A stretch of 35,507 bases of DNA. Origin: a virus. The DNA lies in the IMG/VR virus record IMGVR_UViG_3300027759_000232, positions 1 through 35,507 of that record; one strand, given 5' to 3'. A model generated the notes under the pieces. That model did not search any database. It was not told where the DNA came from and saw only the letters and a program-made list of their open reading frames with translations. Positions 1,487 through 35,507 of this stretch are shown in pieces. A program made the position numbers and the translations under genes. Numbering within the stretch: the stretch's first letter is position 1; each line of letters starts with the position of its first letter.

Positions 1487-2587
1487 ATGTTTGATGCTAT
1501 CAAACCATTAGTAGACAGTGGTATCATTAACGAAGAAACCAAGGCAGCTATCAGCGAAGCTTGGGATTCTAAACTTAATGAAGCCCGCGATCAAATTCGT
1601 GCAGAAATGCGCAACGAATTTGCTGGCCGCTACGAACACGATAAAGGTGTTATGGTCGAAGCTCTAGACAAGATGGTCTCAGAAAGTCTCCAAGCAGAAA
1701 TCCGTGAATTTGCCGACGAAAAGGCACAACTGTCAGCAGACCGTGTACGTTTTAACAAACGCATGGCTGAAAGCGCAGGTAAATTTGATCAATTCCTAGT
1801 TGGAAAACTAGCAGAAGAAATCAAAGAACTGCGCGAAGATCGTAAACAGTATCAAAACTCCATCAAGGGACTAGAGAAGTTTGTGGTTAAATCGTTGGCT
1901 GAAGAAATTCAAGAATTTGCTAAAGACAAACAAGAAGTAGTTGAAACAAAAGTTAAACTTGTTCGCGAAGCTAAACAAAAATTAGCCAGCTTGCAAAAAC
2001 AATTTGTTACCCAATCAGCTAGTCTTGTTAAAGAATCTGTGGCCAAGAATCTAGAGGCAGAAATGACTCAACTAAAAGAGGACATTCAAATTGCTCGCGA
2101 GAACAATTTTGGTCGTCGTCTGTTCGAAGCTTTTGCTAGCGAATTTGCTATTACTCATTTAAATGAGAATACACAAATTGCTAAACTAACACAAGCGTTG
2201 AAAGAAAAAGAACAACTGATCTCAGAAGCCCGTACAGTGGCTGCTGAAAAAGCTGTTTTAGTTGAATCCAAAGACCGTGAGATAAAAATAATTAAAGAAT
2301 CACAAGAGAGAGAAGCTACTCTAAACAAGTTGCTGAAGCCTCTTAACAAAGAGAAGCAGACTGTAATGGTTCAGCTTCTTGAGAATGTGCAGACCGAGAA
2401 ATTGAATTCTGCATTCGAAAAGTATCTACCAGCAGTTTTAAACAACTCCACACCATCAGCAGCGCAAAAACCTGCAATGTTGGCCGAGAGTCGTATGGAA
2501 GTAACTGGCGATAAAACTGCTAAAGTTAATGTTGAGCACGAGTATAATAATGTAGTCGAGATCAAACGTTTAGCAGGGCTTAAATAA
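1487..2587 (+). CDS. 22: Prohead core scaffolding protein (T4 gp22-like)
   Basis: Major internal scaffold around which the capsid assembles; it is degraded by gp21 and leaves the head. The 366 residues are almost entirely charged, heptad-like helix (long runs rich in Glu, Lys, Gln and Ala from about residue 20 to 310), as expected for a coiled-coil core. Several short hydrophobic-x-Glu sites, for example in LAEES/LAEEI and MLAES contexts, are potential gp21 cleavage points. The C-terminus (about 315-366) is less helical. The start is supported by AGGAG at 1474-1478, 8 bases before the ATG. Position between protease and capsid gene makes the call secure even though scaffold sequences diverge quickly. 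Confidence 0.88.
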   Translation: MFDAIKPLVDSGIINEETKAAISEAWDSKLNEARDQIRAEMRNEFAGRYEHDKGVMVEALDKMVSESLQAEIREFADEKAQLSADRVRFNKRMAESAGKFDQFLVGKLAEEIKELREDRKQYQNSIKGLEKFVVKSLAEEIQEFAKDKQEVVETKVKLVREAKQKLASLQKQFVTQSASLVKESVAKNLEAEMTQLKEDIQIARENNFGRRLFEAFASEFAITHLNENTQIAKLTQALKEKEQLISEARTVAAEKAVLVESKDREIKIIKESQEREATLNKLLKPLNKEKQTVMVQLLENVQTEKLNSAFEKYLPAVLNNSTPSAAQKPAMLAESRMEVTGDKTAKVNVEHEYNNVVEIKRLAGLK

Positions 2588-3890: not shown

Positions 3891-3898
3891 CATAAATA
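3891..3898 (+). promoter_or_regulatory. T4-type late promoter (CATAAATA) for the HNH gene
   Basis: The octamer CATAAATA followed by CT differs by one base from the T4 late consensus TATAAATA. It ends 5 bases before the ATG at 3904. In T4 geometry (octamer at -13 to -6) transcription would begin at the A of that ATG. Confidence 0.7.
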
Positions 3899-3903
3899 CT
3901 TAC

Positions 3904-4665
3904 ATGAACAAATACAACAAATGGTATAACAACATCACTAGCTTGGCGCAAACGAGAACAACTACCGAATACACCGAGACACATCACATCGTGCCTAGAA
4001 GTTTAGGCGGGACAGATGACAAGTCAAATTTAACAAAGCTAACCGCAAGAGAACATTTTATCTGCCATTGGCTATTAGTAAAGATATATCCAGTGGGCGA
4101 TGAACACTGGAAAATGCTTAATGCTTTTCGGATGATGCGTGCCGAAAATCCGGTGCAACAAAGATACAAAACTAAAATTACTGGTAGAGTTTACGCAAAT
4201 TTAAAAGAAGAGTATTCAATATTACAGAGTGAAAAAGTATCCGGAAAAAATAATCCTATGCACGGCGATAAGTTCTATAGAAGTGAAGATGGAAAACGGA
4301 GACAGAGTCAAGCAATAAGTGGTGAAAAAAATGGATCCAAGCAAATAGATGCAAGAGCAAAAATATCTACCAGCAAATTAGGAAAAATCAGAGCACCATT
4401 TAGTAAAGAATGGAAGGCAAAGTTATCTAAATCAGGATCAGGTGAAAATAATAGTCGTTACGGAATCGAAGTAAGTGAAGAAACTCGCAAAAAAATTGGA
4501 GATAAAATTCGCGGCCGAAAACAAACTGATAAGGAAAAAGAAAAGCGTAGAGTGGCTAACTTAGGGAAGACAAGAACTAAGAAACAATGTCCACACTGCC
4601 AACAATCAGTAGCAGTAAACGGCTATGCCCGTTGGCACGGCGACAATTGCAAACAAGCTAAATAA
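3904..4665 (+). CDS. Free-standing HNH homing endonuclease with NUMOD3 motifs
   Basis: Probable selfish DNA endonuclease that spreads by cutting related phage genomes lacking it. The N-terminal HNH module contains ETHHIVPRSLGGTDDKSNL (His27/His28 metal and catalytic site, Asn42) and then TAREHFICHWLL (His51/His55). Two NUMOD3-type DNA-binding motifs follow (GKNNPMHG near 114-121 and GENNSRYG near 180-187), with basic linkers between them, and a C-terminal zinc-knuckle-like CPHC...H...C (Cys229, Cys232, Cys249). It occupies the gap between the capsid terminator and the next structural unit, with its own late promoter and terminator, so it looks like an inserted cassette. No Shine-Dalgarno is visible before the ATG. 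The product could also be a general HNH nuclease, but the NUMOD3 repeats favour homing. Confidence 0.88.
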   Translation: MNKYNKWYNNITSLAQTRTTTEYTETHHIVPRSLGGTDDKSNLTKLTAREHFICHWLLVKIYPVGDEHWKMLNAFRMMRAENPVQQRYKTKITGRVYANLKEEYSILQSEKVSGKNNPMHGDKFYRSEDGKRRQSQAISGEKNGSKQIDARAKISTSKLGKIRAPFSKEWKAKLSKSGSGENNSRYGIEVSEETRKKIGDKIRGRKQTDKEKEKRRVANLGKTRTKKQCPHCQQSVAVNGYARWHGDNCKQAK

Positions 4666-4701: not shown

Positions 4702-4724
4702 AAAGCGCCGCAAGGCGCTTTTTT
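4702..4724 (+). terminator. Rho-independent terminator after the HNH gene
   Basis: Perfect 8-bp stem AAAGCGCC/GGCGCTTT closed by a GCAA (GNRA) tetraloop at 4710-4713 and followed by further T residues. Confidence 0.92.
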
Positions 4725-4735
4725 GTTGACTTTGT

Positions 4736-4743
4736 TATAAATA
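4736..4743 (+). promoter_or_regulatory. T4 consensus late promoter (TATAAATA)
   Basis: Exact TATAAATA octamer 11 bases after a terminator. The predicted start near 4749 gives a leader of about 70 nt to the ATG at 4820. This is the longest leader in the window and contains a weak ACTC-TCGT-GAGT hairpin. Confidence 0.8.
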
Positions 4744-5584: not shown

Positions 5585-5603
5585 CCGCAATTCGACAAAT
5601 AAT

Positions 5604-5629
5604 AAAAAATGGGCTTCGGCCCATTTTTT
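5604..5629 (+). terminator. Rho-independent terminator
   Basis: Eleven-base-pair stem AAAAAATGGGC/GCCCATTTTTT with a UUCG loop (5615-5618). It is followed 18 bases later by the next late promoter. Confidence 0.93.
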
Positions 5630-5646
5630 ATCTTTGAATTGTCGAG

Positions 5647-5654
5647 CATAAATA
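5647..5654 (+). promoter_or_regulatory. T4-type late promoter (CATAAATA) for the first fibre operon
   Basis: CATAAATA between the terminator and the ATG at 5675. The predicted start is near 5660, leaving a leader of about 15 nt with only a weak GGGA before the gene. Confidence 0.72.
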
Positions 5655-10157: not shown

Positions 10158-13100
10158 ATGGCCATTACAAGAATTAAAAATAATCAGATCACTGATGCTA
10201 CAATCACCAATGTTAAGATTCTATCACAGACCTTGACTGGCGATTTGATGAATCCCAATTTAACATTCAATAGTAATTTGGTGTTAAATGGTAATTTGAC
10301 GGTGACAGGCAATGTTACCGCGGTACAAAGTACCACAACACAAATCACAGACCCGCTGTTGACTTTGGGTCTCGGCAATGCAGGTACCAGTTATGATCTT
10401 GGTTTAGTATTGATTCGTGGTAGTGGCGGCAACAGATTTATTGGCTTTAAAGAAAATCTAGGCGCATTTGTATTCATTAATACCACTGAAGACGGTTTAA
10501 CCACTGGTAATATTGCCACAACAGCCTACTCCAATGTAATTTTTGGCAATGCCACTACCTTAGGTTCCAGTACATTCGGCGGCATTACACTGAGTGGTAA
10601 TACTATTAGCGCCGCGGGGGTATTGACAGTTCGCAGTGATGCTGGTACCGTAACAATTCCTAATGCTACAATTATTTCCAGCACACTGAGTGTTTCGGGT
10701 GCAACCACAGTTGATAGTTTAAGATCCAATGCAGGTATAATTGCCACCACAGGCAGTTTCTCCAGCAATTTAACAGCCAGCGCACTAACAGTCAACACCA
10801 GTGCAGTAGTAGGCACTACTTTGCAAGCAGTGGCAGGCATACAAGCAACAGCAATTGGTAATGTTACGGCCAGTACTGGTGCATTTACCACATTAGATGC
10901 CACAGGTGCAATCACTGGTGCTACTACTATCACCACAACTGGTACTGCCACATTAAACGCATTAAATGTGAATAATGCAGCAACCGCAGGTACAACATTA
11001 ACTGTTGGCGGAACTGCCACTGTTAACGCACTGGTAAGTAATGGCAGCATACAAGGCACAACATTAAATGGTTCAGGTAATGCCACAGTATCTGCATTAA
11101 CAGTTAATAACTCTGCAACAATTGGCACAACTCTGGGTGTAACTGGCAACACCACTGTTGGCAACTTAAATACTACAGGTAATATAAATGCAGGATATTT
11201 CTTTGGTAATGGTAGCTTACTGACTGGTGTAGCAGCAGCGTCTGCAAGCACTGCTGTCACCGTTACTGGTAACGCACAACCAAACATTACTAGTGTTGGT
11301 GTACTGAGTAGTTTAACAAGTTCTGGAAATATTACTGCCAGTGGATTAACAATTAACAACTCTGCTACAGTCGGAACAACATTGGGAGTCACTGGTAATA
11401 TCAATGGAAGTGGTATTACTTTAACAGGGTCATTGGTAGCAACAGGTTCGGGTGATTTCGATGGCGGCTTGCAAAGCACTCCAATTGGAAATGCCGCTCC
11501 AAGCACAGCATTGTTCACCACAGTTGGCGCTAGCAGTAACGCAACAGTGGCGGCATTAACTGTAAATGGAACCGCAACCTTCGGTAGTACTGTGGGAGTA
11601 ACTGGTACTTTGACTGGCGCTGCTGCACAATTTACTACTATTAACGGCTCCGGAACTGCAACATTAAACGCATTGAATGTGAATAATGCAGCCACTGCAG
11701 GCACAACATTAACTGTTGGCGGCACTGCCACTGTTAATGCTTTGGTTTCTAATACTACTTTTACCGCAGCTTCTGGCACTATACTAGGAAACTTGTTAGT
11801 TGAAGGCAACTTGGCAGTACTGGGTAATCTATCATACATCAATGTGGACAGCTTTACAGTTGAAGATCCGATTATTCAATTGAATACTGGACCCAACGGC
11901 GCACCGTTGAGTGTGGACAATAACTTTGATTCTGGTGTCAGCACAAACTATTATGACGGCGCGGACCGCAGAACATTCTTTGGTCGCAAAGACAGCAGCG
12001 GCTTTTTTGAATACTTTAGTAATGTGGCTAGCGAAACTGGCAATGTGATCACAGGTACCTACGGTACTATAAAATCTGGTAACTTACAACTGGTCAGTGC
12101 AGCCACAATAGGTACTACCGTGGTAGTAGGCGGCAACGCCACAGTGGCTGCATTGACAGTCAATGCTAGTGCAGTAGTTGGCACCACCCTACAAGCAGTA
12201 GCAGGCATACAGGCAACACCAATTGGTAATGTGACAGCCAGTACTGGTAACTTTACTACTGTTGGCGCTACTGGAACTGCCACAGTCAACGCATTGGTCA
12301 GCAATGGTGCTGTGAGCGGAACTACCGCACAGTTTACTACCGTTAACAGCTCTGCTAATGCCACCGTAAACGGTTTAACCGTTAATACCAGTGCAGTAGT
12401 CGGGTCAACCCTACAAGCAGTAGCAGGTATCCAAGCAACACCAATTGGTAATATTACGGCCAGTTCTGGCGCATTTACCACATTGAATGCCACAGGTGCA
12501 ATCACTGGAGCAACAACACTTACCACAACTGGTACTGCCACATTAAATGCTGTAAATGTGAATAATGCTGGCACAGTGGGTACAACATTAACAGTGGGAG
12601 GCACAGCCACAGTCAATGCATTGATCAGCAACGGAGCTATACAAGGCACAACATTAAGTGGTTCTGCTAATGCCACTGTAAACGGTTTAACAGTCAATAC
12701 CAGCGCTGTAGTGGGTACTACACTACAAGCGGTAGCTGGTATACAAGCAACACCAATTGGTAATGTGACTGCGTCTAGTGGTGCATTTACTACACTAAAT
12801 GCTACTGGAGCAATCACTGGCGCAACAACACTTACCACAACTGGCACCGCAACATTAAATGCATTAACAGTCAACAATGCTGGCACAGTGGGCACAACAC
12901 TAACGGTGGGCGGAACAGCCACAGTCAATGCATTGGTCAGCAATGGCGCGATACAAGGCACAACATTAAGTGGATCTGGTAATGCAACAGTTGCAGGTTT
13001 AACAGTCAATGCCAGCGCAGTGATCGGTACTACACTACAAGCAGCAGGAGGCGTACAAGCAACACCAATTGGCAATGCGACAGCCAGTTCTGGTGCATTT

Positions 13101-15344
13101 ACCACACTAACATCAAGTGGCCTAACTACATTTACCAATGCCACTGACAGCACTGGTCCTACCAGTGGTGCGGTTGTGATAACAGGTGGTTTGGGTGTCG
13201 GCAAAGATCTTAATGTAACTACTGAAGCCAACATTGGCAATGTCACATTAAACAACTTGACTATCAGCAGTAACATCACCAACCAAGGATTGAATATCAA
13301 TCCAAACGGTACTGGAGTTACCACTATCAACAGTGGTTTGAACACCAGCCGTACTGTGATCAACGGCACAGCCGCAAACACATTGGTGGTTAGTGGTACA
13401 CAAGTTGGTGTTAACACCAGCAGCTTTATCAGTGGAGCAACATTCCAAGTTAATGCACTGGACAGTATATTACTACCAAAAGGTGCAATCGGTGACAGAC
13501 CGGGTTCGCCAGCTGCTGGTATGCTGCGATTCAGTACCAGCCAAGGCTCAATTGAGTGGTACAACGGCTCCTCTTGGGCCATTCCAACAGGCGACTTTAC
13601 AGTTGTGGTGGCCAACAGTCAAACCGGCAACGGCAGTGCCACATTGTTTACCCTACCAGTGGCCAACGCCAGTACAGCCGGTACAATTGTAAGTATCAAC
13701 GGTGTGGTTCAACAACCAACATCAGCTTATAGTATCACTGGTGCCAATGTAACATTCACAGAAGCTCCGGCCAGCACAGATGTAATTGATTTCCGTGTGT
13801 TCACTACTACAGCGCAGGTAACCGAAGTCACTGATATTGCAGGTACAACTGGCTTATTCTTTGACTTGCCCACAGCAGGCAGTCAGATCACCACAATAAA
13901 GACTGTGGGTACCGAGTCATTTAGTATTCAGGCCAACAGCACAGCTAGATTTACTGGTAATGTTGAACCAAGTGCTAATATTACCTACAGTTTGGGTAGT
14001 ACCACAAATCGTTGGAAAGATTTATGGCTGAGCGGTAGTACAATTTATTTGGGTAACATTCAAATACAGAACACCACTGGTAACACTGTTTCGTTTGTGA
14101 CAAGAACAGGAGCACCTGCTTCATTAGATGTCGACATCAGTGATCCAAGCGGTATACAAGCAACACCAATTGGTAATGCTACTCCGTCAACTGGTAACTT
14201 TACCACAGTGGACGCAACTGGTAATATATCGGCCAGTTACTTTACTGGTAACGGTAGATTATTGTCTGGTATCGATGCAACCAGCATACAAAACGGCACC
14301 AGCAATGTTAAAGTTTATCCTAGTGGCTCAGTGACCACAGGAATAGGCAGCAGCAATGTATTTGTAGTTTCCAGCACTGGTGCTACTGTGATTGGCAACG
14401 TTCTTGTTGGCAGCGGCTCAGCAAGCAGCTCACCTGATTGTGAACTTAATATTTTAGCAAGTCCACAAACTGTGAGTTACAGTCTTTCAGGCCCTAGTAC
14501 AACACTGGGAACAGACTTACACATAAGTGGAGCAGACGCATCACAAACTCGTATTGTTCAAGACTCGTTTGGCACAAGCACATATGTAGCGTTCACTGGA
14601 AGAACTGCCAGAGGCACTGCGGCCACGCCAACACAAACTTTGTCAGGTGACACACTAACACAATTCACAGCTCGTGGATTCAGTAATGGAAGTTTACAGT
14701 TTGGTAATGTGTCAACTGGTCGAATTGATATTATAGCCGCAGAAAACTTTACAGATACCAGTCGTGCTACCAATGTACAGGTATTCACTACAGCAACGGG
14801 ATCCATAACGCCTACGGCAATAGCCACATTTAGTAGCGCAGGCGGTCTAAGTGTAGCTGGTAATGTGACAGTGACTAATAATATCTTTAATGGCGGCACA
14901 ACCGGTACTGGTAATATTGGTGCTACTGGCGCAACATTTAATACGGTGTTTGCCAAAGCAACCACAGCACAATACGCTGACTTGGCAGAAAATTACTCCG
15001 GAGATGCAGTTTACGAACCGGGCACTGTGGTTCACTTTGGTGGATCGCAAGAAGTCACATTGTGCGACGAAGATATGTGTCGTCGAGTTGCAGGTGTAGT
15101 TTCTACGAATCCTGCTTATTTGATGAATAGCCATTTACAAGGTATTGCTACTCCTGTGGCTCTACAAGGTCGAGTGCCATGTAAAGTACAGGGCACAGTA
15201 CGCTTGGGGGATATGATGGTCAGTGCTGGCAACGGATTTGCCCGCGCAGAAGCTGACCCAACATTGGGCAGTGTAATTGGCAAAGCTCTAGCGGACTTTG
15301 ATGGCATCGAAGGTGTAATTGAAGTGGTTGTGGGTCGAGTATAA
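10158..15344 (+). CDS. Giant repetitive tail fibre with C-terminal maturation-like domain
   Basis: A 1728-residue fibre. The N-terminus (NNQITDATITNVKIL, then NGNLTVTGNVTAV and a DPLLTLGLGN segment) is the usual fibre base. Residues about 175-1000 are Thr/Ala/Val/Gly/Asn repeats with signatures such as GIQATPIGNVTAS and GAFTTLNATGAITG, including 104-residue tandem copies. They are interrupted near 575-640 by a globular insert (DPIIQLNTGPNGAPL, FFGRKDSSGFFEYF). A joint module (LPKGAIGDRPGSPAAGMLRF, IVSINGVVQQPTSAY) follows near 1110-1230, and then ITYSLGSTTNRWKDLWLSGS. The last 155 residues (from about 1574) contain YADLAENY, RVAGVVSTNPAYLMNS and GRVPCKVQG, and recur as a separate gene at 20980. 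This end resembles the autoproteolytic chaperone domain of some phage appendages (Peptidase G2 type), which is an inference. No S74-type signature is visible. Probably a host-recognition fibre. Confidence 0.88.
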   Translation: MAITRIKNNQITDATITNVKILSQTLTGDLMNPNLTFNSNLVLNGNLTVTGNVTAVQSTTTQITDPLLTLGLGNAGTSYDLGLVLIRGSGGNRFIGFKENLGAFVFINTTEDGLTTGNIATTAYSNVIFGNATTLGSSTFGGITLSGNTISAAGVLTVRSDAGTVTIPNATIISSTLSVSGATTVDSLRSNAGIIATTGSFSSNLTASALTVNTSAVVGTTLQAVAGIQATAIGNVTASTGAFTTLDATGAITGATTITTTGTATLNALNVNNAATAGTTLTVGGTATVNALVSNGSIQGTTLNGSGNATVSALTVNNSATIGTTLGVTGNTTVGNLNTTGNINAGYFFGNGSLLTGVAAASASTAVTVTGNAQPNITSVGVLSSLTSSGNITASGLTINNSATVGTTLGVTGNINGSGITLTGSLVATGSGDFDGGLQSTPIGNAAPSTALFTTVGASSNATVAALTVNGTATFGSTVGVTGTLTGAAAQFTTINGSGTATLNALNVNNAATAGTTLTVGGTATVNALVSNTTFTAASGTILGNLLVEGNLAVLGNLSYINVDSFTVEDPIIQLNTGPNGAPLSVDNNFDSGVSTNYYDGADRRTFFGRKDSSGFFEYFSNVASETGNVITGTYGTIKSGNLQLVSAATIGTTVVVGGNATVAALTVNASAVVGTTLQAVAGIQATPIGNVTASTGNFTTVGATGTATVNALVSNGAVSGTTAQFTTVNSSANATVNGLTVNTSAVVGSTLQAVAGIQATPIGNITASSGAFTTLNATGAITGATTLTTTGTATLNAVNVNNAGTVGTTLTVGGTATVNALISNGAIQGTTLSGSANATVNGLTVNTSAVVGTTLQAVAGIQATPIGNVTASSGAFTTLNATGAITGATTLTTTGTATLNALTVNNAGTVGTTLTVGGTATVNALVSNGAIQGTTLSGSGNATVAGLTVNASAVIGTTLQAAGGVQATPIGNATASSGAFTTLTSSGLTTFTNATDSTGPTSGAVVITGGLGVGKDLNVTTEANIGNVTLNNLTISSNITNQGLNINPNGTGVTTINSGLNTSRTVINGTAANTLVVSGTQVGVNTSSFISGATFQVNALDSILLPKGAIGDRPGSPAAGMLRFSTSQGSIEWYNGSSWAIPTGDFTVVVANSQTGNGSATLFTLPVANASTAGTIVSINGVVQQPTSAYSITGANVTFTEAPASTDVIDFRVFTTTAQVTEVTDIAGTTGLFFDLPTAGSQITTIKTVGTESFSIQANSTARFTGNVEPSANITYSLGSTTNRWKDLWLSGSTIYLGNIQIQNTTGNTVSFVTRTGAPASLDVDISDPSGIQATPIGNATPSTGNFTTVDATGNISASYFTGNGRLLSGIDATSIQNGTSNVKVYPSGSVTTGIGSSNVFVVSSTGATVIGNVLVGSGSASSSPDCELNILASPQTVSYSLSGPSTTLGTDLHISGADASQTRIVQDSFGTSTYVAFTGRTARGTAATPTQTLSGDTLTQFTARGFSNGSLQFGNVSTGRIDIIAAENFTDTSRATNVQVFTTATGSITPTAIATFSSAGGLSVAGNVTVTNNIFNGGTTGTGNIGATGATFNTVFAKATTAQYADLAENYSGDAVYEPGTVVHFGGSQEVTLCDEDMCRRVAGVVSTNPAYLMNSHLQGIATPVALQGRVPCKVQGTVRLGDMMVSAGNGFARAEADPTLGSVIGKALADFDGIEGVIEVVVGRV
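12357..13112 (+). repeat. 312-bp coding tandem repeats in the giant fibre gene
   Basis: Two full units (12357-12668 and 12669-12980) and a partial third (12981 to about 13112) keep an exact 312-base period. For example the CCAATTGG core occurs at 12441 and 12753, with CCAATTGGC at 13065. Each unit encodes 104 residues (NATVNGLTVN... through GTTLSGS). A related but differently spaced copy lies at 12219, and older degenerate copies reach back to about 10780. The period keeps the reading frame, so units could be gained or lost by recombination. Confidence 0.9.
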
Positions 15345-15362: not shown

Positions 15363-15382
15363 AAAGGGCCTTTGGGCCCTTT
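15363..15382 (+). terminator. Terminator-like hairpin after the giant fibre
   Basis: Eight-base-pair stem AAAGGGCC/GGCCCTTT with TTTG loop (15371-15374). The T tract is weak (CAGTTTTA follows), so termination may be partial. Confidence 0.7.
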
Positions 15383-15389
15383 CAGTTTT

Positions 15390-15397
15390 AATAAATA
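15390..15397 (+). promoter_or_regulatory. T4-type late promoter (AATAAATA)
   Basis: AATAAATA lies directly after the hairpin and 23 bases before the ATG at 15421. The predicted start near 15403 leaves a leader of about 18 nt without a strong ribosome site. Confidence 0.65.
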
Positions 15398-20964: not shown

Positions 20965-20972
20965 AATAAATA
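20965..20972 (+). promoter_or_regulatory. T4-type late promoter (AATAAATA)
   Basis: AATAAATACT ends 7 bases before the ATG at 20980. The predicted start lies within about two bases of that ATG, and no ribosome site is present. Confidence 0.55.
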
Positions 20973-20979
20973 CTATACT

Positions 20980-21519
20980 ATGGCTAAACTCAACTCCGGA
21001 ACCCGAATTTATGGCAATGCAACAGTAGATACATTTATAACTGTTAGTTCGATAACCAACGGAGGCACAACTGGTACTGGTAATATCGGTGCTACTGGTG
21101 CAACATTCAACACTGTGTTTGCCAAAGCAACAACGGCACAATACGCCGACTTGGCAGAAATTTATATAGCCGATGACGATTATACACCCGGCACAGTGGT
21201 TGTGTTCGGTGGCTCTAAAGAAATCACAGTTACCAGCACAGCGCACGATACCAGAGTAGCAGGAGTTATATCAACTAATCCAGCATACTTGATGAATAGT
21301 GAAGTGCAAGGATTGCCAGTTGCGCTGACAGGTCGTGTTCCGTGTTTGGTGCAAGGCCCGATAAATAAAGGTGAAGTGTTGGTTACTGGCCTTAAACCGG
21401 GAACCGCACAGAAAATTAATCCGGCCAGATTTCAACCTGGATGTGTTATAGGCAAATCAATTGAAAATATTCCTGATGATGAATTAAAACTTATTGAAAT
21501 TGTTGTAGGAAGATTCTAA
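20980..21519 (+). CDS. Stand-alone fibre C-terminal (chaperone/maturation-like) domain
   Basis: The 179-residue protein's last ~155 residues align with the end of the 1728-residue fibre: GGTTGTGNIGATGATFNTVF, AKATTAQYADLAE, then PGTVV-FGGS, RVAGVISTNPAYLMNS, LTGRVPCLVQG, VIGK and IEIVVGRF. The DNA encoding the first ~35 residues is nearly identical in the two genes. The 25-residue N-terminus is unique. Related domains in other phage appendages fold a trimeric fibre and may cut themselves off. That function is inferred from architecture only. A free copy could act in trans or cap another fibre. Translation of the next gene is coupled through a TAATG overlap. Confidence 0.75.
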   Translation: MAKLNSGTRIYGNATVDTFITVSSITNGGTTGTGNIGATGATFNTVFAKATTAQYADLAEIYIADDDYTPGTVVVFGGSKEITVTSTAHDTRVAGVISTNPAYLMNSEVQGLPVALTGRVPCLVQGPINKGEVLVTGLKPGTAQKINPARFQPGCVIGKSIENIPDDELKLIEIVVGRF

Positions 21520-25948: not shown

Positions 25949-25977
25949 TTGACTTGATTCGATATCGATGTTATAAT
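25949..25977 (+). promoter_or_regulatory. Sigma70-type promoter (TTGACT-17-TATAAT)
   Basis: -35 TTGACT at 25949-25954, 17-base spacer, and perfect -10 TATAAT at 25972-25977. The predicted start near 25984 gives a leader of about 24 nt with AAGGA at 25997-26001. A perfect palindrome TCGATATCGA (25958-25967) lies inside the spacer. Confidence 0.85.
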
Positions 25978-26007: not shown

Positions 26008-27177
26008 ATGGCAACAGTAGCTGGCATCAAGATTAAAATTAAAGCGGCCAAGGTTCGTAATGCAGCATTTGCAGACGAAAAATATACTGGTGGCGAGCCC
26101 GAATGGCCAGAAGAGGCAGCAGAATGGGAAGACAGTGAGTTTGATAACTTCCTTCGCCGTAGCTTCTATTACTACAATTATTACTACAATCAAAAGGATT
26201 GCAAGAAGTATGTGGTAGAGTGGCTTAAAACCATGCCCACTGAGTTTACCAAAGAAGAAGTCAAGGCATTTGATCGTTCAGCAGATCGTGCAATCCCAAT
26301 GACAGCCTGTAGTCTGATTATGGCACGCCGTCAAGGAATGATTTTCCGTACACGACACACTGACTTTCTAAAACAAGTTATCCGTGCGGCAATTTCAGAA
26401 GCAGAACCTGAAGCAGTTGAAATAACTTCCTCGGCTGCGAAAACATACACTCCTACTATTCAAGACCGTCTCAATGAGAAGACCAGCGAGATCATCGGAG
26501 AGCTTGAGGGCATGTACGACGATGTGTGCCTAAATAATAAAACAGCATTCAAGCCCTATGACTTCTTGACCGGCAATAATGTGGTTCAAAACCAATTGGG
26601 CAAGTACGAAATACTGTTTACTGCCCGCCGAACTGAACTTGAGACAGCACAGAGCAAAGAAGATGCCCAATTGACTGAGGGATATAAACACTATAAGGCC
26701 GCTGATTTCAAGCGGATTATTGCGTGGATTGACGCACTGCTGGCCGCAGTCGAACAGTATCGTGATGTAAAGAAAGCCACAAAGAAAGCCAGAGTTAAGA
26801 AAGCACCTAGTAAAGAAAAGGTCATAGCCAAACTCAAGTACTGTAAAACTGACCCTGTGTTGAAACTGGTCAGTATGAATCCTGCTGATATTATTGGAGC
26901 AAATGAGTTGTGGGTGTATAATATCAAAACTCGCAAGCTGGGCAAATATATCGCAGATAATTTGCAAGGTCCACTGGGAGTAAAAGGCACCAGTTTGATG
27001 GGATTCGACGAGGCCAAGTCAGTGTGCAAAACATTGCGTAAACCGGCCGAGACTCTCAAAGATTTTGCAAAATCGGGCAAGATTCAATTGCGTAAATTCC
27101 TTGACGAGATCAAAGCCACAGAAACTAAAATGAACGGTCGAATTAGCGCAGATATTGTGCTACTCAAAGTTGCATAA
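26008..27177 (+). CDS. Conserved T4-like phage protein of unknown function, early-type promoter
   Basis: A 389-residue soluble protein, lysine-rich and largely helical. It resembles a conserved hypothetical family I know from aquatic T4-like phages (core IQDRLNEKTSEIIGELEGMY, then YDFLTGNNVVQNQLGKYEIL). The N-terminus (VAGIKIKIKAAKVRNAAFA) is basic. A tyrosine cluster YYYNYYYN sits at about 53-60. A very basic stretch (KKATKKARVKKAPSKEK, about 254-270) suggests nucleic-acid contact, and the last third is beta/alpha (LWVYNIKTRKLGKYI). No catalytic motif is evident. It has a near-perfect sigma70 promoter and a good ribosome site, so it is probably made early and strongly. A hairpin just after the stop covers the start of gene 13. 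Confidence 0.85.
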   Translation: MATVAGIKIKIKAAKVRNAAFADEKYTGGEPEWPEEAAEWEDSEFDNFLRRSFYYYNYYYNQKDCKKYVVEWLKTMPTEFTKEEVKAFDRSADRAIPMTACSLIMARRQGMIFRTRHTDFLKQVIRAAISEAEPEAVEITSSAAKTYTPTIQDRLNEKTSEIIGELEGMYDDVCLNNKTAFKPYDFLTGNNVVQNQLGKYEILFTARRTELETAQSKEDAQLTEGYKHYKAADFKRIIAWIDALLAAVEQYRDVKKATKKARVKKAPSKEKVIAKLKYCKTDPVLKLVSMNPADIIGANELWVYNIKTRKLGKYIADNLQGPLGVKGTSLMGFDEAKSVCKTLRKPAETLKDFAKSGKIQLRKFLDEIKATETKMNGRISADIVLLKVA

Positions 27178-27180
27178 CAT

Positions 27181-27220
27181 AAAGAGTTCTATTAGCTAAA
27201 TATGGTTAATAGGACTCTTT
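27181..27220 (+). promoter_or_regulatory. RBS-sequestering hairpin with a late promoter in its loop
   Basis: A 14-bp stem pairs 27181-27194 with 27207-27220 (13 Watson-Crick pairs and one G-U) around a 12-base loop. The right arm contains the gp13 ribosome site AGGA (27211-27214). The loop carries GCTAAATA, whose predicted transcript begins inside the right arm and cannot form the hairpin. The stem ends in TTTT, so it may also end the upstream transcript. Confidence 0.75.
27195..27202 (+). promoter_or_regulatory. Late-promoter element (GCTAAATA) for gene 13
   Basis: Keeps the TAAATA core of the late octamer and sits exactly in the hairpin loop. The predicted start near 27208 gives a leader of about 17 nt with AGGA 10 bases before the ATG. 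Confidence 0.6.
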
Positions 27221-27224
27221 TCAT

Positions 27225-28385
27225 ATGTCAACAGTTATTCAACCCGACTTAAAAGGCGACTTTAGCCTTAGAACACAAGACTTAGGCGGCCCGGGCTCGA
27301 TCAGCACCGAGAGTGCGATTGCAGCCAATCCACAAATTCAAACACTCAATCAGCTCAGAAATGATATGATTGATTACATTCGTTTGAGACTGGGCGACCA
27401 AATCGTAGACATCGAGCTGGACAAAGAACACTACGATCTGGCCATCAAGCAAGCATTGATAAAGTATCGTCAAAAGGCACAAAATGCAGTGGAAGAAAGC
27501 TATGCATTCTTAGACTTGATTCCCAATGTACAAGAATATATTTTGCCCAACTACATCATGGAAGTTAGGCAGATTTTCCGCAGAGGCATCGGTGCCTCGC
27601 CCGGATCCACAGCCAGTCAATTTGAACCGTTCTCTTCGGGCTACTTAAACACTTACATGTTGGTGGCCGGTCGTGTTGGTGGCTTGTTGAGCTATGAATT
27701 GTTTGCGCAATATCAAGAGCTGGCCATGACCATGTTTGGCGGCTACATAAACTATACTTGGAATCGTGTTACCAAAAAGTTAACATTGGTGAGGAAAATA
27801 CCTTACGATAACGGAACAGCAGTATCATTGAACTCGTTGACTGCAAGTGGTCTCGCTGCAGGTTCTACAATTACCATAACTCTACAATCACCGCAGACCA
27901 GTGTTCAAACAGATTCCAGCATTTATATTCAAAACTGCCCAGTTCGCGGTTACGGCGCTGAGTATAGAGTTGTGACCATTGACCCTACCAGTACCATAAT
28001 AACAGTGGTAGCCAATCAAGTGTTGGGATCAGTTGCAGTCACTGGCAGCGACCTACAGAAAACCACAGTTTGGATTCCGGATTACGACTCTGGAACCAAC
28101 AATATGGAAAGTGTGTTGCTTTGGATTTTCAATCAGAAACCCGACAGTATGCTGCTAAGTGATCCAATGGTTTATCCGTGGCTACAGGATTACGCACTGG
28201 CATTTGCCAAAAGCATATTGGGACAGGCTCGAGGCAAGTTCAGTACACTGGCTGGCCCACAGAGCGGCACCACACTAAACGGTGCAGCACTGATGGCAGA
28301 GTCTGCGGCAGAAATGGCCCAACTCGAAGATGACCTAAAAAATTATGTCGACGGTTCGCAGCCATTGACCTGGGTTATCGGTTAA
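27225..28385 (+). CDS. 13: Neck / head completion protein (T4 gp13-like)
   Basis: Neck protein that joins the portal side of the head to gp14 and the tail. Family hallmarks are IRLRLGDQIVDIELDKEHYD, LIKYRQKAQNAVEESYAF, EYILPNYIMEVRQIFRRGIG, GGYINYTWNRVTKKLTLVRK and a C-terminal MVYPWLQDYALAFAKSILGQ plus ARGKFSTLAGP. Residues about 205-290 are a beta-rich insert (SGLAAGSTITITLQSPQTS). At 386 residues it is longer than T4 gp13 (309). Genes 13 and 14 are adjacent and co-directional in T4. Here they are separated by two early-type genes and lie on opposite strands. Translation is probably controlled by the upstream hairpin. Confidence 0.9.
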   Translation: MSTVIQPDLKGDFSLRTQDLGGPGSISTESAIAANPQIQTLNQLRNDMIDYIRLRLGDQIVDIELDKEHYDLAIKQALIKYRQKAQNAVEESYAFLDLIPNVQEYILPNYIMEVRQIFRRGIGASPGSTASQFEPFSSGYLNTYMLVAGRVGGLLSYELFAQYQELAMTMFGGYINYTWNRVTKKLTLVRKIPYDNGTAVSLNSLTASGLAAGSTITITLQSPQTSVQTDSSIYIQNCPVRGYGAEYRVVTIDPTSTIITVVANQVLGSVAVTGSDLQKTTVWIPDYDSGTNNMESVLLWIFNQKPDSMLLSDPMVYPWLQDYALAFAKSILGQARGKFSTLAGPQSGTTLNGAALMAESAAEMAQLEDDLKNYVDGSQPLTWVIG

Positions 28386-28392
28386 ACTTTAC

Positions 28393-28421
28393 TTGATTTT
28401 TATCTGTTACTTCTGTATAAT
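28393..28421 (+). promoter_or_regulatory. Sigma70-type promoter (TTGATT-17-TATAAT) for the dNMP kinase
   Basis: TTGATT at 28393-28398, 17-base spacer, and TATAAT at 28416-28421. The predicted start near 28428 falls at the beginning of the AGGAG ribosome site (28429-28433). A dyad CTGTAT-A-ATACAG (28413-28425) covers the -10 box. Confidence 0.75.
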
Positions 28422-28439
28422 ACAGTATAGGAGTAATTT

Positions 28440-29036
28440 ATGATCATAGGTCTATGTGGTTTAATTGGCAGCGGCAAAGACACAGCCGCAGATTATCTGT
28501 GTAATTTTCACGAATTTCGACGGGACAGCTTTGCTTCCACACTCAAAGACGCAGTGGCCTCAGTATTTGGCTGGGATCGTGAACTATTAGAAGGTCGTAC
28601 CAAGCAAGCCCGCGAATGGCGAGAACAAATCGATCCATGGTGGGCCGACCGCATGGACATGCCAAATTTAACTCCTAGATTAATTTTACAATTATGGGGC
28701 ACAGAAGTATGCCGCCGCGGATTCCACGATGATATTTGGATCGCCAGTCTAGAAAATAAACTTCGAAATACCAAAGATAATATTGTTATCAGTGATTGTC
28801 GTTTCCCCAACGAAATTACCAGCATACGCAGGGCAGGCGGCCGAGTGATCAGAATAGCTCGCGGTACAGATCCAGCGTGGTTTAGTTTGGCCAAAGTAGA
28901 TCCGTCTAAAATGCCGTCAGTGTATCCGGATATTCACGCCAGCGAATACAGCTGGGCACAGACTGACTTTGATTTTATCATTGACAACAACGGGTCAATT
29001 GAAGATCTGTACTCGGATCTTAAAAATCTGGTGTAA
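28440..29036 (+). CDS. 1: Deoxynucleoside monophosphate kinase (T4 gp1-like)
   Basis: Phosphorylates dNMPs (in T4: dTMP, dGMP and 5-hydroxymethyl-dCMP) to feed phage DNA synthesis. The 198-residue length is close to the usual for phage dNMP kinases. The P-loop GLIGSGKDT is at residues 7-15. Further family features are FRRDSFASTLKDAVASVFGW, LILQLWGTEVCRRGFHDDIW and the strand IVISDCRFPNEI, followed by the basic GGRVIRIARG. Which nucleotide is used cannot be read from the sequence. It has its own sigma70-type promoter and a strong AGGAG, fitting early expression even though late genes surround it. The 3' end overlaps the convergent zinc-ribbon gene by 17 bases. Confidence 0.92.
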   Translation: MIIGLCGLIGSGKDTAADYLCNFHEFRRDSFASTLKDAVASVFGWDRELLEGRTKQAREWREQIDPWWADRMDMPNLTPRLILQLWGTEVCRRGFHDDIWIASLENKLRNTKDNIVISDCRFPNEITSIRRAGGRVIRIARGTDPAWFSLAKVDPSKMPSVYPDIHASEYSWAQTDFDFIIDNNGSIEDLYSDLKNLV

Positions 29037-33376: not shown

Positions 33377-33401
33377 AAACCCACTTTCTAGTGGGTTTTT
33401 T
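33377..33401 (+). terminator. Rho-independent terminator after gene 19
   Basis: Nine-base-pair stem AAACCCACT/AGTGGGTTT with TTCT loop (33386-33389) and a T tract. The next late promoter begins 6 bases later. Confidence 0.93.
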
Positions 33402-33406
33402 AATGA

Positions 33407-33414
33407 CATAAATA
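33407..33414 (+). promoter_or_regulatory. T4-type late promoter (CATAAATA)
   Basis: CATAAATATTAGT runs into the ATG at 33420 with 5 bases between octamer and ATG. The predicted transcript starts at the A of the start codon. Confidence 0.7.
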
Positions 33415-33419
33415 TTAGT

Positions 33420-35507
33420 ATGGCCAGCCTTTATAATGCAGATTTAAAACCTATCGCCTCGGGTGCTACCACATACCCGTACGATCACGCAACTAGATTG
33501 TTTCTATCGGACAATTATAGACTTGCACCCAAGCAAAGTTTTTTATACTATGTTTGTATTAATGTGGATACTGGCACTCTCACTGGGTCGAGCATACTAC
33601 AATCATTGATTGCTCCGGACGGCACCAGTAGCCAGACTCTAATAGAGCAGTATGAAACTGGATTACTGGCAAAACGAGTGGAATTGCCCAAGTTTACTTT
33701 GTCCACCAAAACCATGAATGCGTATAATAGAAAAAATATTATACAAACCAATATTTCATATGACCCAGTTACAATAACATTCCATGATGATGCAGCAGAT
33801 ATTGTAAACACTTTTTGGAATGACTACTATACATATTATTATAGAGATAGTGATTACAATTCCACACTGTATCAGTTGCCGCACAAGTACCAACCCAGAA
33901 ATAGAGATAGTTGGGGTTTTACTCCGCGAAATAATTCATTACGGCCATTTCTAAGAAATATACAAATATTCAGTTTACACAATAAACGATTTACTGAATA
34001 TTTGTTGATTAATCCGTTTATTACCAGCTGGCGGCATGGCGAACATGATGCATCTCGTGGCGACGGAATTATGGAAAATACCATGCAACTGGCCTACGAA
34101 ACTGTAAAGTATAGAACAGGCTATATAAACCCAATTGATGTAAATGGGTTTAGTCTTCTGCACTACGACAATACCGCCAGTCCTATATCCAATGGCGCAT
34201 CGAACGTGTTCACTGATGCAATAATTAGCGGTGCAGTAAATGGTGCAACTAAAGATTTGTCCAGACCCAATGGCACTGGCAGCGGTGTAGGAGTATTGGG
34301 CAGCATACTCAATGCTTACAAATTTTATAACACTGCTAAAAATGTTAACATTGGCGGAGTAGCAAAGCAAGTACTGGGGCAAATAGCGGGACAGGTTATA
34401 AATGGCGCAGTGAACGGCGCTATCAATAATGTATTTTTCCCCACAGTAAATGGCACCGGCGGCTACGGCGGCACCTACGGCAGCAGTCAAGTGTACTCCA
34501 ACGCAGGCATACTTCAAACAAATCCATATGGATCTCCGGCTAATTCATTTTTAGCAACCATTGCAGGATCCGCAGTGGGCGCAGTGACTGGCTCCATTGT
34601 GCAAACAGCAGCCACTCAAATTGATCAGTGGGTACGCGGTGTGGTCAGCGGACAAACAGCGCCATTGCCCGGCTATCAGCAAATATATCAAGCGCAGACC
34701 ACCAGTGGCATCATACAAGTAAATTCACAAGGACAACCTATCACTGGTCAATCTACAGCTTTTGTTCAGAACTCCGACGGAACAAATATTGTAGGCGAAT
34801 TACAAACTATACAAACCGCAACTGGAACATACAATCCGACCAACCTGACAGAAAATTTAAAATATGCCACAGTTACCACCGATGAAAGCGGCAAGCCGGT
34901 AACTGAGTATGTATACCGTGATGGTACCAGAGTTATATACGATGACGAACGGGGCGGGGCGATACAAACTTATCCTGGTACAAATGCTATATCAGGCACA
35001 AATACCATTAATGCTCCAGTGGATGCAAGAAATCAAGTAATTGCAGGTCAACAACTCAATCCAGGTCAGCAACAAACATACACAGATCCAAGAACAGGCA
35101 TCATATACACAACCGGCGGCACCACAGGAGCATATATTATAAATACTATATCGGGCACTGCCGGTGCTGCGGCCGGCGGTCTTCTGGGCTACGGTGCTAA
35201 TCAATTGCTCAATCAAACATTCTTAGGTAAAACTGTTATCGGTCAATCGGTAAGTGGCGCCGCCGCGGGCGCTTTGGGTCTTCTCGTTAGCAGAGAAATC
35301 AGTAATGGCCTTCAGCCTATTTTAAATGGTATTACTGGCAGTATCAGTCAAGGATGGGACAGTGTGGCCGGGTCTATTAAAAATGTAACAGGATCATGGT
35401 TCGGCGACGGAAAATATAATCCAGCCAGTCCGACCAACAATATTTTAAGTAGAGTATACGACGGAGAAGGTGGATATATTATTACTGATAGAGCTGGTGG
35501 TGTGACT
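33420..35507 (+). CDS. Baseplate / tube-initiator-like structural protein, 3'-truncated
   Basis: The frame stays open from this ATG to the right edge (at least 696 residues, no stop). The N-terminus MASLYNADLKPIASGATTYP is followed by a domain (about 75-200: LPKFTLSTKTMNAYNRKNII, then ISYDPVTITFHDDAADIV and WNDYYTYYYRDSDY). This matches the tube-like folds of baseplate proteins such as T4 gp48/gp54, where a V-Y-x-P-(I/V)-x-(I/F)-x-F-x-D pattern precedes the helix. The later part is Gly/Ala/Ser/Asn-rich with hydrophobic helical runs (TIAGSAVGAVTGSIVQTAAT; ISGTAGAAAGGLLGYGANQL; VSGAAAGALGLLVSREI), perhaps tape-measure-like or membrane-active segments. The position after gp19 fits a tail-tube partner. 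There is no ribosome site and the late octamer is 5 bases before the ATG. The exact T4 equivalent is uncertain. Confidence 0.72.
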   Translation, partial: MASLYNADLKPIASGATTYPYDHATRLFLSDNYRLAPKQSFLYYVCINVDTGTLTGSSILQSLIAPDGTSSQTLIEQYETGLLAKRVELPKFTLSTKTMNAYNRKNIIQTNISYDPVTITFHDDAADIVNTFWNDYYTYYYRDSDYNSTLYQLPHKYQPRNRDSWGFTPRNNSLRPFLRNIQIFSLHNKRFTEYLLINPFITSWRHGEHDASRGDGIMENTMQLAYETVKYRTGYINPIDVNGFSLLHYDNTASPISNGASNVFTDAIISGAVNGATKDLSRPNGTGSGVGVLGSILNAYKFYNTAKNVNIGGVAKQVLGQIAGQVINGAVNGAINNVFFPTVNGTGGYGGTYGSSQVYSNAGILQTNPYGSPANSFLATIAGSAVGAVTGSIVQTAATQIDQWVRGVVSGQTAPLPGYQQIYQAQTTSGIIQVNSQGQPITGQSTAFVQNSDGTNIVGELQTIQTATGTYNPTNLTENLKYATVTTDESGKPVTEYVYRDGTRVIYDDERGGAIQTYPGTNAISGTNTINAPVDARNQVIAGQQLNPGQQQTYTDPRTGIIYTTGGTTGAYIINTISGTAGAAAGGLLGYGANQLLNQTFLGKTVIGQSVSGAAAGALGLLVSREISNGLQPILNGITGSISQGWDSVAGSIKNVTGSWFGDGKYNPASPTNNILSRVYDGEGGYIITDRAGGVT

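Follow-up and report, generated by a model that had tools for sequence, protein, structure and literature searches.

The closest described system is that of the lysozyme gene e of bacteriophage T4, in which a hairpin forms on early RNA and late promoters are nested within it (PMC3014915); comparable hairpins are known for T4 soc, 49, I-TevI/II/III and segB and for Aeh1 mobE (PMC3014915, PMC2988022). The T4 cases are all late genes (PMC2988022). When T4 gene e was processed with the method used below, an 11-bp hairpin with TATAAATA in its loop was obtained, in agreement with the published account (PMC3014915), and this proven case showed the same topology as the locus considered here, a likeness to which the original prediction had pointed.

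Our data concern gp13, the gene for a head-tail adaptor (neck) protein, in a 35.5-kb fragment of viral DNA (the window, meaning the whole stretch that was analysed). Between the stop codon of the upstream gene phrog_11903 (27175–27177) and the gp13 ATG (27225) lies an inverted repeat on the + strand, and the hairpin it encodes is very probably a timing switch like those of T4 e, soc and I-TevI, here acting on a neck gene. The features of the locus are as follows.

25949–25977, + strand: sigma70 promoter TTGACT-17-TATAAT of the phrog_11903 gene (11/12 consensus match, TG before the -10)
26008–27177, + strand: upstream gene phrog_11903 (PHROG match, E 1e-69), early-type, proposed source of the read-through RNA
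27181–27198, + strand: hairpin left arm (core 27181–27194), from inverted repeat and fold
27195–27202, + strand: late promoter core GCTAAATA at the hairpin apex (TAAATA invariant in 60/60 aligned relatives)
27203–27220, + strand: hairpin right arm holding the gp13 Shine-Dalgarno (SD) sequence, from fold, alignment and covariation
27211–27214, + strand: gp13 SD AGGA, 10 nt before the ATG
27225–28385, + strand: gp13, head-tail adaptor (neck) (phrog_211, E 3e-29)

The core stem pairs 27181–27194 with 27207–27220 (14 bp) around the 12-base loop GCTAAATATGGT, while weaker apical pairs and G-U pairs lengthen it to 18 bp, the loop then being 27199–27202; TAAATA within the apex occupies 27197–27202. 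The segment 27178–27224 folded at -21.0 kcal/mol against -4.6 ± 1.9 kcal/mol for dinucleotide shuffles (z -8.6), and none of 200 shuffles equalled it. In T4 late promoters the octamer stands at -13 to -6 relative to the start, and application of this spacing gives a predicted late start at 27208, about 3 nt before the SD and inside the right arm. Late RNA from this position is predicted to read 5'-AAUAGGACUCUUUUCAUAUG and, lacking the left arm, could not form the stem. The cost of opening the region from SD to AUG was 22.8 kcal/mol on the read-through RNA and 1.8 kcal/mol on RNA from 27208, with a mean of 4.1 kcal/mol when the 5' segment was shuffled. As in the T4 e/soc/I-TevI type, the SD is thus held in a stable helix on the read-through RNA, and the late promoter is so positioned, judged by sequence only, that late RNA would escape the 5' strand of the helix. 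The original prediction had described a 14-bp stem with a 12-base loop over the AGGA, a late-promoter core in the loop, a late start between 27206 and 27210 in the right arm, a sigma70-driven gene at 26008 and an SD left free on late RNA; every one of these elements was found at the position it had given, the late start being predicted from the T4 spacing and the free SD from the opening costs.

Neither CTAAATA (6 found, 6.8 expected) nor ATAAATA was enriched as a motif in the window; the counts were therefore not used, and the promoter was called from its position and conservation. An Rfam search of the window gave no family match at the gathering score. Among other ATAAATA cores in the window, those at 3892–3904 and 33408–33420 have a predicted start on the A of the ATG (3904 and 33420), and that at 20966–20980 has one 2 nt before the ATG (20980); late messages from the 3904, 33420 and 20980 starts are predicted to be leaderless. 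A further observation concerns 10158–15344, which encodes a 1728-aa repetitive fibre-like protein and carries open frames of 438 and 518 aa on the opposite strand, probably an effect of the repeats.

Like the T4 e/soc/I-TevI type, gp13 has a co-directional early-type gene with a sigma70 promoter directly upstream. Upstream of phrog_11903, a sigma70 match of at least 10/12 was present in 31 of 80 distinct relatives and TAAATA in only 4; many of the remaining relatives seem to have the end of another gene a short way upstream, so that the promoter may be further off. The neighbours of phrog_11903 in several cultured phages are genes for RNase H, DNA ligase, glutaredoxin or glycosyltransferase, and these neighbours together with the sigma70 promoters indicate that phrog_11903 is likely an early-timed gene. 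Nine related large genomes were searched for a gp55-type late sigma factor gene, and 7 of them encode one; the fragment itself lacks a gp55 gene. We propose that, early in infection, sigma70-driven transcription of phrog_11903 would continue into gp13, and that the long read-through RNA would fold the hairpin and bury the gp13 SD, so that no neck protein is made. Late in infection, a gp55-type polymerase would use the TAAATA promoter at the apex, and its RNA, which would have about 3 nt ahead of the SD and no left arm, would be translated. The proposal is based on sequence and comparison, namely on pairing, promoter position, covariation, constant spacing and linkage to gp13, from which we infer the read-through, the late 5' end, the repression and the timing; the T4-style timing control on a neck gene that had been suggested beforehand is to this extent supported at the sequence level.

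A DNA similarity search of phage records with the window found nothing, and relatives had therefore to be sought by protein searches. Two scans of viral contigs gave 160 loci, in each of which both genes were located, and after removal of duplicates the scored set comprised 76 distinct alleles from uncultivated phages with gp13 proteins 54–100% identical. The GG of the SD was paired with the segment preceding the predicted late start in 68 of the 76, and the predicted late start lay 2–6 nt (mostly 3–4) ahead of this GG in all 76. Median opening costs for gp13 in the relatives were 15.3 kcal/mol on read-through RNA, 1.7 kcal/mol on late RNA and 5.2 kcal/mol with the 5' segment shuffled, and the cost exceeded that of all 20 shuffles in 64/76 alleles. 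A few short alleles depart from this: in L119, L139 and perhaps L155 the hairpin close to the SD or AUG is another, shifted one, its left arm still largely ahead of the predicted late start. The gp18 gene of the same phages was tried as a 'no hairpin' control and proved not to be clean, its SD being paired in the MFE structure in 29 of 31 relatives; its opening cost exceeded all shuffles in only 6/29, against 64/76 for gp13, and absence of pairing is not claimed for gp18.

In the 60-sequence alignment the invariant columns were TAAATA, the two Gs of the SD and the ATG. The arms varied widely in sequence with the pairing kept: of the 13 pairs, 11 showed compensatory, both-sided changes, which amounted to 92 cells, whereas shuffles gave 34. 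Paired cells made up 80% of the total and never more than 45% after the arms had been slid against each other. Conserved pairing and compensatory changes in relatives, which the original prediction had named as its own tests, were thus both found, the latter well above the shuffled and slid controls. RNAalifold on the raw alignment returned only 7 pairs because loop lengths differ among alleles, and the named structure was counted instead. The covariation also bears on whether the dyad could instead act as DNA, with no RNA structure involved, as an operator that overlaps the late promoter and binds a repressor or activator. Promoter and dyad do overlap, and I-TevI binds an operator over its own late promoter (PMC2988022); however, a DNA site would conserve its sequence rather than its pairing, the SD is always in the right arm, and G-U pairs are kept frequently across the family, which favours an RNA structure over a DNA site, so that we regard an operator as highly improbable. 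A main role of the stem in RNA processing or stability, for instance as an RNase III site dividing the two messages, is also highly improbable: intergenic stems of such length can serve as processing sites, but this would leave unexplained the TAAATA at the apex and a predicted start 2–6 nt before the SD in every allele.

The alternative that survives best, though we consider it unlikely, is that the hairpin is mainly the intrinsic terminator of phrog_11903, its right arm doubling as SD and its loop as late promoter, so that read-through would be halted at the RNA polymerase rather than at the ribosome. Like an intrinsic terminator, the hairpin follows within a few bases of the phrog_11903 stop codon and in most relatives ends in a tail rich in U (48/68 alleles have 5 or more U in the 8 bases past the last G-C pair), and separate terminators lie ahead of late promoters elsewhere in the window. 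A G+C-rich stem followed directly by a conserved U-tract was nevertheless not found: the stem in the window is low in GC, its tail is CUUUUC, the element was not called by a terminator scan, and in 16/68 alleles (e.g. L107, L070, L038 and L136) at most 3 of the 8 bases are U and the SD pairing is kept. SD masking is therefore the conserved feature and termination an optional extra. A terminator, moreover, has no need of an SD in its right arm or a promoter inside it at its apex, and the hairpin follows gp13 rather than the end of phrog_11903. In four alleles in which other sequence or a gene parts the two (L118, L145, L157 and L159), the hairpin was directly before gp13 and was not found at the phrog_11903 end, so that with upstream insertions it usually appears to remain linked to gp13. 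We accordingly prefer the SD-masking switch; termination, for which the original prediction had allowed, may contribute in part wherever there is a strong U-tract.

The linkage has exceptions. The types represented by L061 and L065, in which a dehydrogenase-like gene is inserted, have a plain late promoter before gp13 and no hairpin; gp13 of L112 likewise has a plain late promoter with the hairpin absent; and in PA5oct phrog_11903 precedes gp13 and the hairpin is absent. In L122 an insertion of about 700 bases (745-nt gap) lies upstream of gp13, and the left arm is seemingly lost, with right arm and promoter kept. As a separate observation, a repeated unit of terminator hairpin, late promoter and gene occurs in the window at 4702–4743, 5602–5654, 15363–15397 and about 33380–33414, its parts lying separately, unlike those of the fused gp13 element.

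Nine cultured jumbo phages have the same gp13 layout: EJP2, GAP32, CBB, XbC2, Munch (a Salmonella phage), K64-1, Hallingskeid, XaC1 and BF (a Serratia phage, L171). By direct folding, the right arm of their hairpins contained the SD, and TAAATA lay either in the loop or in the left arm; the genes upstream of these hairpins were small and of other functions. A covariance model built from the alignment yielded further candidate copies in related large genomes and barely detected the cultured jumbo phages, whose hairpins rest for that reason on direct folding. In the cultured phages the tail sheath gene follows the dNMP kinase gene or a small gene on the same strand. We also observed that the tail sheath gene in most of them has TCCTCC...ATAAATA...GGAGGA directly before its ATG, with a long loop and no U-tract (in BF, before 4378).

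The gene that follows gp13 in the window, for deoxynucleoside monophosphate kinase (dNMP kinase), carries what appears to be a mirror image of the gp13 element, about which the original prediction had made no claim.

28393–28421, + strand: sigma70 promoter TTGATT-17-TATAAT of the dNMP kinase gene (10/12 match), with its -10 at the apex of the second hairpin
28406–28437, + strand: second hairpin, 28406–28418 paired with 28425–28437, SD AGGAG (28429–28433) in the right arm
28440–29036, + strand: dNMP kinase gene (phrog_139, E 2e-53), early-type, next after gp13

The predicted sigma70 start is at about 28428, and the opening cost in the window was 13.5 kcal/mol on read-through RNA against 1.5 kcal/mol on the gene's own RNA, the former above all 20 shuffles. 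Among 66 distinct relatives, 58 had the promoter in place with 9/12 or more of the sigma70 consensus matched. Across 60 relatives the median opening costs were 10.5 kcal/mol on read-through RNA, 1.7 on own RNA and 5.6 after shuffling, and the cost exceeded all shuffles in 29. By the strict SD-pairing measure the shuffles were beaten in only 12/58 relatives, since the loop often takes up some of the SD. Where a gene is inserted behind gp13, the second hairpin mostly remains with the kinase. Support for the mirror element is weaker than that for the gp13 hairpin, and an SD partly in the loop together with a strong U-tract in many relatives makes termination a serious alternative there. If it acts by masking, the second hairpin would mute the dNMP kinase on late read-through RNA, the reverse of the T4 cases.

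Whether promoter-nested hairpins over ribosome-binding sites (RBS) are general read-through insulators, serving both promoter classes, with gp13 muted on early RNA and the dNMP kinase on late RNA, we judge to be evenly balanced. Whole-genome scans found a strong hairpin at only a few of the 40 (G003) and 61 (BF) late-promoter genes, which makes the device selective. Other genes with such arrangements were also noticed. In L185 a late promoter is nested in the RBS hairpin of a GH19-type endolysin gene (match at 1501–1558, reverse strand); an SprT-like gene (L188 and L189, Pfam score slightly below the cut-off) likewise has a late promoter in a hairpin; and in L183, L184 and L186 the hairpin ahead of a gene of about 75 aa has TATAAT in its loop, with TTGACA or TTGACT at a spacing of 17 bases before it, and its right arm contains the SD. 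Were the insulator reading true, same-strand neighbours of opposite timing would each be translated only from their own promoter. If the mirror element holds, the device would not be a peculiarity of late genes: it would be a general means of keeping early and late genes apart where they are interleaved, and would offer a natural model for expression that is proof against read-through. At gp13, a switch known from a handful of T4-type genes very probably forms a deeply conserved regulatory part of a virion neck gene, shared by a large group of T4-like phages, mostly uncultured, and by jumbo phages. Over 70 distinct natural alleles that carry compensatory changes, together with cultured phages, are available for testing it.

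No report of such an element, whether for gene 13 or for an early gene, was found in the literature searched, which is weak evidence as the search covered only a minority of subscription papers. The gp13 locus resembles T4 e in that the SD would be hidden on early read-through RNA, the late promoter lies in the loop and late RNA would lack the 5' arm. It differs in concerning a neck protein with phrog_11903 upstream, in a stem of unrelated sequence, and in a predicted late start as close as about 3 nt to the SD. The L185 endolysin hairpin is the functional counterpart of that of T4 e. With soc, 49, I-TevI/II/III, segB and mobE the locus shares the arrangement of a late gene inside an early or middle unit, its SD or AUG sequestered and late RNA escaping, whereas gene 13 is not among the cases described. 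The dNMP kinase element sets an early-type gene and a sigma70 promoter against the exclusively late genes of T4. The device is very probably one known from T4 lysozyme, and what is new here is its presence on a neck gene, its deep conservation and, apparently, its mirror on the next early gene.
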